NCBI RefSeq assembly: GCF_002214545.1
Contig: NZ_CP015105.1
Span: forward strand, 62,001 to 126,000
DNA length: 64,000 nucleotides
DNA from: Thermococcus thioreducens
GTDB taxonomy: Archaea; Methanobacteriota_B; Thermococci; Thermococcales; Thermococcaceae
Direction of reading: 5' to 3'
Position numbers and translations under genes: made by a program. Every line of letters begins with the position of its first letter. The first letter of the stretch is position 1. A model generated the notes under the pieces. That model was not told the DNA's origin. It searched no databases and worked only from the letters and a program-made list of their open reading frames with translations. Below, piece after piece: positions 13,274 to 58,668 of the stretch.

Positions 13274-13876
13274 ATGAAAGTGCTCGTGACGGGATTCGAG
13301 CCCTTCGGCGGCGAGGAGATAAACCCTTCCTGGGAGGCCGTTTCGGGGCTTCCGGATGAGATTGGTGGGGCAGAGATAATAAAGCGACAGCTCCCGGTGA
13401 CCTTCAACGGCGTCAGAAAGATTCTTCCAAGGCTGATTGTCGAGGAGAGGCCGGACGTTGTAATCCTGACCGGCCAGGCCGGCGGGAGGCCGAACATAAC
13501 CGTCGAGCGCGTTGCGATAAACGTCATGGACAGCACGATGCCCGACAATGACGGCTTTGCTCCAGAAGATGAGCCAGTCTTTGAGGGCGCCCCGGCGGCA
13601 TACTTCGCAACACTCCCTATAAAGGCCATCGTGAGGGCTTTGAGGGGAGAGAAGATTCCCGCGGGGATTTCAAACACCGCCGGGACCTACGTCTGCAATA
13701 CCACAATGTTCACGGCGCTCCACACGATAGCCGTTGCGGGAATGGAAACTAAGGCCGGCTTCATACATGTCCCCTTCAGCCACGAACAGGCCTTGGAAAA
13801 GCCGAGGCCCTCAATGGCCGTTGAAACGATAAGGAAGGCCTTAGAGGTCGCCATCAGAACCTCCCTGAGGGGCTGA
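13274..13876 (+). CDS. pcp: Pyroglutamyl-peptidase I (pyrrolidone-carboxylate peptidase)
   Basis: 200 residues. The cysteine peptidase C15 triad is complete: Glu78 in TVERVAINV, Cys141 in GTYVCNT and His165 in GFIHVPF. The N-terminal LVTGFEPFGG is the family hallmark. The enzyme removes N-terminal pyroglutamate from peptides in the cytosol and is a tetramer in Thermococcales. The start at 13274 follows GGTGGTATC. Upstream CTAAAAACC elements serve as a likely TATA region. It is monocistronic and divergent from the reductase operon. Confidence 0.97.
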   Translation: MKVLVTGFEPFGGEEINPSWEAVSGLPDEIGGAEIIKRQLPVTFNGVRKILPRLIVEERPDVVILTGQAGGRPNITVERVAINVMDSTMPDNDGFAPEDEPVFEGAPAAYFATLPIKAIVRALRGEKIPAGISNTAGTYVCNTTMFTALHTIAVAGMETKAGFIHVPFSHEQALEKPRPSMAVETIRKALEVAIRTSLRG

Positions 13877-13924
13877 TAAGCTTTTTAAACCGCCCCTCCA
13901 ACCTTTCCACAGAACCCTTAGAGG

Positions 13925-53322: not shown

Positions 53323-53445
53323 TTACCTTTTCACCTCCACCCTGAACTCCCTTGCCTTTCTCCTCATTCTCCATTCCTCGATTTTCCTCACGAACGGACA
53401 GCGGGAGCGCCATTTCCAGTAGGCTCTTTTCAGCGACTCGAACAT
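53323..53445 (-). CDS. Small very basic protein, 40 residues, beside the IS derivative
   Basis: Starts with an ATG at 53445 and ends with a TAA that abuts the stop of hisS. The protein (MFESLKRAYWKWRSRCPF at the N terminus) is rich in Arg, Lys and Trp and has one Cys. No ribosome binding site is at proper distance, and the frame stays open upstream up to the end of the mobile element. It may thus be the tail of a longer gene cut by that insertion. I do not recognise it. Confidence 0.45.
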   Translation of the reverse strand: MFESLKRAYWKWRSRCPFVRKIEEWRMRRKAREFRVEVKR

Positions 53446-53482
53446 CTCTGGCCCCAGGCTGACCTCTCCCCCGCCGTGAAGG

Positions 53483-53850
53483 GGGTTCAACCCTCGCCGT
53501 TGGCGGTTCGGTTCGCGGGCCCATCACTTACTCGGGTCGCCCCTTTCAGTTCAGCCCGCAGGCCCGGTCTTGGGCCCGTTACCCCTACCGGCAAAGCGGA
53601 TCAGGGTTATCGCTTCAAAGCCCCTCCCAAACTCTAACTGCCCAAGAGGGCAGTTTTCGAAGGACGCCTGCCAGCGTCCTCCCCTGCTTTTGCAGGGGAC
53701 ACGGTGAAAGCCCTCTAAGAGGACTACCCGTCAAAGGACTCTTTCAGAGTCCTTACCACTCCAAAACTTAAAAGGCTTTCGGTAATTTGAATGGCTGACT
53801 CAAGAATACTGCATCCCCTCCGTGAACGGCGAGGCTTTCAAAAGAAAAAT
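53483..53850 (-). mobile_element. Non-autonomous IS200/IS605-type element (MITE) with omegaRNA-like right end
   Basis: On the minus strand the segment has a left end like that of the TnpB element at 57109 (GAAAGCCTCGCCGTTCACGG versus CAAGCCTCGCCCTTCAGGG) preceded by TTAC. Its right end repeats the TnpB 3' region: GGTAGGGGTAAC, then CCGCCA..GGCGAGGG and TT(A/G)AACCC. Translated, the right part still shows a broken TnpB tail (AGRGNGPKTGPAG). No transposase frame remains. Five hairpins lie inside. A CTTTTAAGTTTT box (53764-53775) could start transcription of the hairpin part. Boundaries are estimates. Confidence 0.75.
53636..53754. repeat. Cluster of five hairpins inside the IS derivative
   Basis: Perfect stems: 53636-53655 (8 bp, AACTGCCC/GGGCAGTT), 53661-53680 (7 bp, AGGACGC/GCGTCCT), 53681-53698 (7 bp, CCCCTGC/GCAGGGG), 53712-53722 (4 bp, CCTC/GAGG) and 53733-53754 (9 bp, AAGGACTCT/AGAGTCCTT). 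They follow one another almost without gaps. This looks like a structured RNA made from the minus strand. Confidence 0.8.
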
Positions 53851-53916
53851 GTAATATCTGAAACACAGCTTAAAGGGTTAGCGGATGAAGAAATATTAAA
53901 AAGAGCCATGGGGCAC

Positions 53917-57221: not shown

Positions 57222-58535
57222 ATGAAGCGGGCAGTAGCGGTCAAACTCCAGCCCTCGAAGGAACAAAAGAAAATCCTTTTTGAATTAGCTTACGCTTCAG
57301 CAATAATCTGGAACAAACTCAACTACCGGAGGCTCAAACAATTCAAAGAATTCGGCAAAATAGACTTTTCAACAACTGAAAAAGAAGCCTACCACGAGTT
57401 CAAAAACTGGATTGGTGGCTCAACAGTTCAACAACTGGCCAGAAAGAACGCTGAAGCGTGGCGTTCTTTCTTCTCCCTCAACAGGAAGAAAAAGAAGGGT
57501 GAACTGCCCGAATGGTTTAAACCGAAACCACCAAAATTCGTCAAGGAAAAGAATGGTAAAAAACTCTTTGTAATCCCCCTTAGGAACGACCAGTATCAGA
57601 TTGATGGGAACGTTATTGAATTGAGACGTCTCGGCAAGTTTGGGAAACTCAAAATCCAGTTCAAGGGCAGAATACACTTGAAGGGCAAGCAAGGACGCTT
57701 AGAAATCGCCTATGATGACGTTAGGCGGAAGTGGTATGCCCACATTAGCTTTACGGTAGAGGAGAAGCTTGAAAGTGGGGAATGGGTAAGCGTTCCGAGA
57801 AAGCCAAGGGGAAACCTCTCTGCCGGAATTGACTTGGGAGTGAACAATTTGATGGCCGTTTATGTTGAAAACGGTGAGAGTTTTCTGGTTAATGGAAGGC
57901 CACTCAAAAGCATTGATTTTTACTGGCGGAGGAAGATTGCTGAGTATCAGTCAAAACTTAACAAGTCAGGAGCTAAAACGAGCAGGAAGCTCAAGAGAAT
58001 ACACGAGAGGGCTAAACTCCAAGCGAGGCATTACATCAATACCGCAGTTAGGCAAACTGTTAGAAGGCTTTATGAGCTCGGCGTTTCAAGAATTGTAGTT
58101 GGTTACCCGAAGGGTATTGCAAGGAACTCTGATAAGGGCAAAAGGCAGAATTTCATTCTCTCTCACGTTTGGCGGTTTAATTACGTCATCAAACGCTTAA
58201 CTGAGGTTGCTGAGGAGTATGGTATTCAGGTTTTGGTTGTTGATGAGGCTTTCACTTCTCAATCCTGCCCTCTCTGTGGCCAGCGCAATTCTAACGGGAG
58301 AATTTTCAGGGGTTTGTTTAAGTGCCACAGGGTGGGCGCTGTTATGAACGCTGACCTTGTGGGAGCTTTTAATATTTTGAAGAAGGTGGTGAAACTCATA
58401 ACCCCGAGCCTTCCTGCTCTTATGGGGGGTAGGGGTAACTGGCCGGAGACCCGGCCAGAGGGGTTCGAAGAACCCGTTCTAACGGGTTCCCTAATGAGAA
58501 CCCCTCAAACCTCCCCGCCAGTGGCGAGGGGTTAA
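57222..58535 (+). CDS. tnpB: TnpB, RNA-guided RuvC nuclease of an IS605-type element
   Basis: 437 residues. N-terminal helical DNA/RNA-binding part (LQPSKEQKKILFELAYASAI), a beta WED-like region, then the RuvC triad: Asp204 in SAGIDLGVNNLM, Glu342 in VVDEAFTSQSCPLCG and Asp378 in VMNADLVGAFNI. The zinc finger has CPLC, then FKCHRV where CxxC is expected: the fourth cysteine is Val371. The last 50 residues overlap the right end and the predicted omegaRNA. TnpB cuts DNA next to a target motif with the omegaRNA guide and helps keep the element in place. A CTTTTAAAGTATAAAA promoter precedes it. Confidence 0.93.
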   Translation: MKRAVAVKLQPSKEQKKILFELAYASAIIWNKLNYRRLKQFKEFGKIDFSTTEKEAYHEFKNWIGGSTVQQLARKNAEAWRSFFSLNRKKKKGELPEWFKPKPPKFVKEKNGKKLFVIPLRNDQYQIDGNVIELRRLGKFGKLKIQFKGRIHLKGKQGRLEIAYDDVRRKWYAHISFTVEEKLESGEWVSVPRKPRGNLSAGIDLGVNNLMAVYVENGESFLVNGRPLKSIDFYWRRKIAEYQSKLNKSGAKTSRKLKRIHERAKLQARHYINTAVRQTVRRLYELGVSRIVVGYPKGIARNSDKGKRQNFILSHVWRFNYVIKRLTEVAEEYGIQVLVVDEAFTSQSCPLCGQRNSNGRIFRGLFKCHRVGAVMNADLVGAFNILKKVVKLITPSLPALMGGRGNWPETRPEGFEEPVLTGSLMRTPQTSPPVARG

Positions 58536-58612: not shown

Positions 58613-58668
58613 AGGGATGATGAGTCTGGAGCCCCCTGATCGGTGAGGAGGTTTCGCGGGGCTGACCG
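58613..58668 (+). ncRNA. C/D box sRNA D; D' guide fits the tRNA-Trp anticodon arm
   Basis: C box ATGATGA 58617-58623, 12-base guide, D' box CTGA 58636-58639, three-base spacer, C' box GTGAGGA 58643-58649, 12-base guide, D box CTGA 58662-58665, GG/CC flanks. The D' guide is the complement of GGGGCUCCAGAC, which reads as anticodon stem and loop CUCCAGA of tRNA-Trp(CCA); the fifth base points to C32. The second guide target is unknown. Confidence 0.85.

Follow-up and report, generated by a model that had tools for sequence, protein, structure and literature searches.

Does a bacterial or archaeal TnpB acting in trans maintain elements that lack tnpB? Eukaryotes are known to have orphan omegaRNAs and there are hints of them in archaea; a locus of Thermococcus thioreducens raises this question. 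In the window analysed here (64,000 nucleotides of contig NZ_CP015105.1, positions 62,001 to 126,000), an initial annotation made from the letters alone had read positions 53483-53850 as a compact IS605-type derivative that retains hairpins and an omegaRNA-like right end.

The segment is a complete tnpB-less IS200/IS605 element of the PATE type, with a length of 392 bp (53459-53850, minus strand) and with neither tnpA nor tnpB. Empty-site alignments and comparison of copies define its extent. Specifically, the flanks are contiguous, with no element between them, in L191 (91% identity), L193 (80%), L194 and L196, and the layout is TTAC | ATTTTTC ... GAGAGGTCAG | CCTGGGG. The terminal G (53459) is assigned to the element because there is a one-base gap at the join in L191 and L193. 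Across 83 copies the element ends in ..GTCAG followed by random flank, the G after GTCA being present in 81 of the 83. The right end, which the initial annotation had set at 53483, thus lies at 53459. It comprises a terminal hairpin, CCCCCTTCACGGCGGGGG, and the terminal GAGAGGTCAG (53459-53485, minus strand), with the stem-loop at 53485-53468. On the other side, the target tetranucleotide TTAC, the would-be TAM, occupies 53851-53854 (minus strand); near the left boundary, TTAC is present in 50 of 68 copies and TGAC in 6.

As the initial annotation had noticed, both ends are similar to the ends of a TnpB element 3.4 kb away (57.1-58.6 kb), with which they form inverted repeats I1 (38 nt, 82%) and I2 (35 nt, 83%). 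The left-end palindrome GCCTCGCCGTTCACGGAGGGG (53815-53835, minus strand) is common to the two, and the left end is 91-95% identical to the left ends of further TnpB elements in the same genome. The features that define PATEs are all present: the ends are homologous to those of a tnpB-bearing IS605 element and contain near-terminal palindromes, no transposase gene lies between them, and insertion is 3' of TTAC with no target duplication, as the unoccupied sites of L191 and L193 and the exact right junction against L184-L186 show. The sole coding remnant is a TnpB-like tail of 15 residues (60% identical, E 0.004). The broken TnpB tail described initially corresponds to this match, and RNA conservation accounts for it, since the stretch lies in the part of the RNA core that overlaps with the 3' end of tnpB.

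The copies and empty sites that had been proposed as a check both exist. By DNA similarity, the family occurs in 24 of 61 Thermococcus genomes, with up to 11 matches per genome, and 67 near-complete copies were extracted. The T. thioreducens genome has full copies at three places and a truncated copy at a fourth. The second full copy (C1:1772573; L002:1493-1877, G000 C1:1772565-1772949) splits a PIN-domain (VapC-like) gene that is whole in three relatives (L184-L186). In these the target is uninterrupted (TTTTAC|TCC) and places the right boundary identically; this copy has lost about 32 bp of left-flanking DNA. In a remnant of some 60 bp that consists of the termini alone (L007:1500-1550, G000 C1:1225013), the left and right ends are fused, reminiscent of PATE core deletions, and L004 is a truncated, decayed copy. 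The number of sites and species with copies implies past mobility, for which TnpA acting in trans is the putative agent.

The interior of the element begins with a promoter-like box on the minus strand, which the initial annotation had pointed out. This BRE/TATA promoter, CGAAAGCCTTTTAAG (53781-53767), is conserved in all copies: a box of the form CGAAACCCTTTTAAA is found at a similar position within 5 mismatches in 59 of 59 non-redundant copies, and within 2 in 43 of them, while the best match in shuffled sequence averages 6.7 mismatches. A scan of the element with sigma-70 and intrinsic-terminator models, which are unsuited to archaea, returned nothing.

Downstream of the promoter are the five tight hairpins that the initial annotation had seen, all on the minus strand and covarying across copies. 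Hairpin 1, GGACTCT(GAA)AGAGTCC, is at 53736-53752 and hairpin 2 at 53709-53725. The arms of hairpin 3 (53680-53699) covary strongly across copies, with double changes in 7 of 7 pairs. Hairpin 4 (53662-53679), GGACGC..GCGTCC, is the most conserved in sequence, and hairpin 5 (53636-53655) also covaries. The usual archaeal TATA spacing would have transcription begin at about 53745, within the hairpin 1 loop; this hairpin may therefore be a DNA palindrome at the initiation site and be left out of the RNA.

The hairpins are retained among copies whose arms differ, with 4.6 hairpins per copy between promoter and core versus 1.9 in shuffles. When 56 copies were aligned with structure taken into account, both partners had changed in a compensatory way at 23 of the 31 array pairs, and G-U pairs were frequent among the changes. 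Covariation of the array in this alignment, which was fitted to the structure and is biased towards it, is 0.308 versus 0.180 ± 0.007 in shuffles; none of 500 shuffles reaches the observed value, and the same holds for every measure. In a plain, structure-blind alignment, covariation (0.214 versus 0.171) is still above all shuffles, while the counts of double-change pairs and of pair types are not. RNAalifold recovered few array pairs from the plain all-copy alignment because the arms shift register, which the structure-aware alignment resolved.

A covariance model of the array (R2), built from 36 copies including the one in the window, matches 53612-53754 (minus strand) with 77 bits (E 3e-23). 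R2 finds the array in 55 of 94 Thermococcaceae genomes and in five of six genera, including genome G064, which we take to be Pyrococcus abyssi. As a negative control, the 21 genomes outside Thermococcaceae in a phylum-wide set of 115 gave no match, and the same 55 genomes matched. The element is widespread as a family and its array forms a conserved unit that covaries in its own right, neither of which was in the initial annotation. In the other genera, the array abuts the core at 25 of 33 loci. L143 and L257, from two genera, are natural chimeras in which the five hairpins are joined to an omegaRNA core of TnpB type (113 bits with the core model R1 described below). Six loci of the Pyrococcus-like genus g3 (L252, L263, L264, L266, L267 and L270) match the array model but lack a recognisable omegaRNA core, which is either decayed or of a different kind. 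A coding role for the array was considered and rejected: the 29 forward ATG frames longer than 30 aa in the 67 copies show no sign of a common frame. A probable role of the array is to protect, fold or process the RNA or to attract a helper.

The core that follows the array (53510-53610, minus strand) is of the omegaRNA type, with three helices. The covariance model R1, built from 34 TnpB right ends with no copy of the tnpB-less element included, matches it with 55.2 bits (E 1e-14), so that the proposed covariance comparison with TnpB omegaRNAs bears out the annotated omegaRNA-like right end. No Rfam family matches the element at gathering level. R1 also matches the core at each of the 37 further element loci of a first test and, weakly, at one more, and R1 cores are present in 71 of 94 Thermococcaceae genomes. 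Another R1 match in the window (13796-13903, E 0.016) overlaps the apparent 3' end of a coding region and is taken as chance. Two base pairs are fixed differently in TnpB and element cores yet remain paired, A-U to C-G (26/28) and G-C to C-G (24/28), and the near-invariant unpaired bases (AUA, GUAA, AAG.CC, AAACC) are the same at 15 of 21 positions; the distal stem differs. The omegaRNA-like reading holds because a TnpB-only model finds the core, compensatory changes are fixed and the unpaired bases are the same. Such a pattern is expected if the cores descend from a common ancestor and have been selected for one fold and one binding partner.

In an omegaRNA, the conserved core is followed by the element boundary and by a guide from the flank. 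The empty site provides the geometry for such an arrangement: the predicted guide would match the emptied target adjacent to the TAM. Its first 16 nt would be CCTGGGGCCAGAGATG (53443-53458, minus strand). The guide proposed initially, CCCTTCACGGCGGGGG, sits within the terminal hairpin (53485-53468) and is replaced by CCTGGGGCCAGAGATG, for which no second site within 2 mismatches was found genome-wide. An omegaRNA of TnpB overlaps or follows tnpB and matures out of the tnpB mRNA; the element departs from this in containing no tnpB and having its own promoter instead.

One candidate partner in trans, the one named in the initial annotation, is the TnpB encoded at 57222-58535 on the plus strand (OrfB_IS605, Cas12f1-like TNB; Pfam PF01385 and PF07282). 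The omegaRNA core of this TnpB element (58398-58511, plus strand) overlaps the tnpB 3' end and scores 120.3 bits with R1, in whose training set it is included. Some 40 bp beyond the right end of this TnpB element is a C/D box RNA, sR23 (58615-58667, 74.8 bits), so the element was inserted beside a snoRNA-like gene. The same TnpB and its relatives (L055-L061, L146-L174) have Gly-Tyr-Pro where the canonical Glu of RuvC-II would be expected. In this family a conserved Glu occurs further on, in V(D/N/G)EAFTS, and the second zinc-finger CxxC looks lost; its active site is possibly rearranged.

Eight TnpB copies are present in the genome, some with one in-frame stop. Over 61 genomes, those with more TnpB copies tend to hold more copies of the element (Spearman 0.73, Fisher P 0.0012, uncorrected for phylogeny). 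A close TnpB is lacking in three element-bearing genomes, G051, G017 and G039, the last of which is incomplete. TnpA is present in 15 of 61 Thermococcus genomes, and no Y1 TnpA was found in the T. thioreducens genome; because no Y1 transposase is left, the cycle of excision and retention may be stalled in this species.

The simplest reading of these observations is that a non-autonomous IS200/IS605 element carries an RNA gene as cargo. The archaeal promoter would drive a minus-strand RNA of about 300 nt, comprising in order the hairpin array, the omegaRNA scaffold, the right end and a guide from flanking DNA (CCTGGGGCCAGAGATG..). A TnpB encoded elsewhere in the genome would take up this scaffold, a use in trans that we predict as likely, and would cut the vacated site (TTAC plus the guide sequence) after excision. 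Repair from the sister copy would then restore the element, as has already been proposed for TnpB acting in cis. The whole mechanism taken together is in our judgement rather probable. Fanzor ghost loci (PMC10432273), the P. abyssi orphan RNAs (PMC3124441) and HgcC4 (PMC4247193) count in its favour as precedents. Counting against it, excision, which is the purpose of the guide, may have ceased in T. thioreducens with the loss of Y1 TnpA; three genomes have the element and no close TnpB; the predicted start site falls inside hairpin 1; and the distal stem differs from that of TnpB cores.

The same evidence bears on three other explanations. The RNA could be made and conserved independently of TnpB, binding L7Ae or another host protein or regulating tnpB, with the core as inherited scaffolding. 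Conservation of the array structure beyond the needs of a spacer, the Pyrococcus-type loci that hold an array and no recognisable core, and the binding of L7Ae by kindred P. abyssi RNAs through K-turns (PMC3124441) speak for this. However, the core retains the unpaired bases that are invariant in TnpB omegaRNAs, array and core are nearly always fused, and the end and the guide junction are retained, so we consider it unlikely.

The other two explanations dispense with a functional RNA. IS200/IS605 ends function as single-stranded DNA hairpins, and the terminal hairpins are retained here; the array and core might likewise act in single-stranded DNA during TnpA transposition, the element being selfish DNA only. 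This we give a very slim chance, as the internal array is missing from TnpB elements with the same ends, the conserved BRE/TATA box directly upstream has no role in single-stranded transposition, and G-U pairs are frequent among the changes. Alternatively, the segment might be a deleted tnpB element that drifts without function. Absence of TnpA from the genome and the decay of copies such as L004 and L007 fit such a relic, but the interior is mostly not recognisable tnpB, is common to five genera and keeps its pairing by compensatory changes, and the copy in the window has promoter, hairpins, core and ends intact; a relic is thus quite improbable. Beyond the trans-TnpB mechanism that we favour, it is conceivable, at somewhat less than even chances, that the array represents a hitherto undescribed RNA module, found throughout Thermococcaceae and serving a separate function, and that the elements are RNA-only parasites of TnpB persisting by means of a borrowed nuclease. 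That function may be loading, processing or stabilising the orphan guide RNA at 80-100 °C, or choosing which TnpB uses it.

With well over a hundred natural examples, clear ends, guides and empty sites, and a genetically tractable relative in T. kodakarensis, the question of maintenance in trans is directly testable. The natural 5' extension may matter for the design of TnpB guides. The family also supplies a context for the long-known HgcC RNAs. At a permissive level, Rfam gave only chance-level matches in the element. HgcC (RF00062) and sot0042 (RF02656) give sub-gathering matches both to TnpB right ends and to copies of the element; for HgcC (gathering 50 bits), the copy in the window scores 12.4 bits (E 3, left end only) and L136 scores 36.6 bits. 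L136 is a 5'-truncated copy of the family in the 5' part of a small ORF in genome G012, which we take to be T. kodakarensis. HgcC was found as a northern-positive RNA (PMC4247193). In T. kodakarensis, HgcC1-3 have their starts inside three transposase genes (TK0298, TK0495 and TK0850); transcription of HgcC4, to which no transposase gene is linked, begins at the TK1679 start site (PMC4247193). The positions of the three TnpB genes in G012 fit TK0298, TK0495 and TK0850, and L136 is at the extrapolated position of TK1679. HgcC4 is thus probably the truncated copy L136, an assignment based on anatomy and on positions extrapolated from three TnpB genes. The anatomy of L136 fits a transcribed HgcC without a transposase gene (PMC4247193); unlike the element in the window, it is missing its own promoter, and that of the host gene would serve.

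Intergenic RNAs of P. abyssi related to OrfB 3' ends bind L7Ae via K-turns (PMC3124441). Like the Thermococcus element, sRk48, sRk52, sRkB and sRkC are repetitive intergenic Thermococcales RNAs with kinship to OrfB 3' ends and with BRE/TATA promoters, whereas they are described without element ends or a guide (PMC3124441). We rejected sRkB and sRkC as the same RNA, since their printed positions (PMC3124441) differ from the R2 array matches in G064. The right-end position of the core is identical to that of TnpB omegaRNAs and right-end RNAs, and R1 matches both; unlike them, the element has no upstream tnpB, its own promoter, a five-hairpin 5' extension and a different distal stem. Neither Rfam nor the mostly open-access papers searched contained a hairpin array linked to an orphan omegaRNA and preceded by a promoter of its own.

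PATEs of Haloquadratum (PMC3119063) and a PATE-like sequence of Halanaerobium (PMC7290912) define the type of element. Like them, the Thermococcus element lacks a transposase gene, has IS605-like near-terminal palindromes, has neither terminal inverted repeats nor target duplication, and exists in terminal-only versions. Its interior, by contrast, is a conserved promoter and RNA gene found in five genera with a covarying array, an RNA that does not appear in the consulted passages of those reports. A functional parallel is eukaryotic: Fanzor 'ghost' omegaRNAs of Spizellomyces punctatus, which in human cells proved functional with the nuclease supplied in trans (PMC10432273). The ghost loci belong to inverted-repeat elements, and the excerpts of that report describe no conserved hairpin array; like the Thermococcus element, they combine transposon ends and an omegaRNA in the absence of the nuclease gene.
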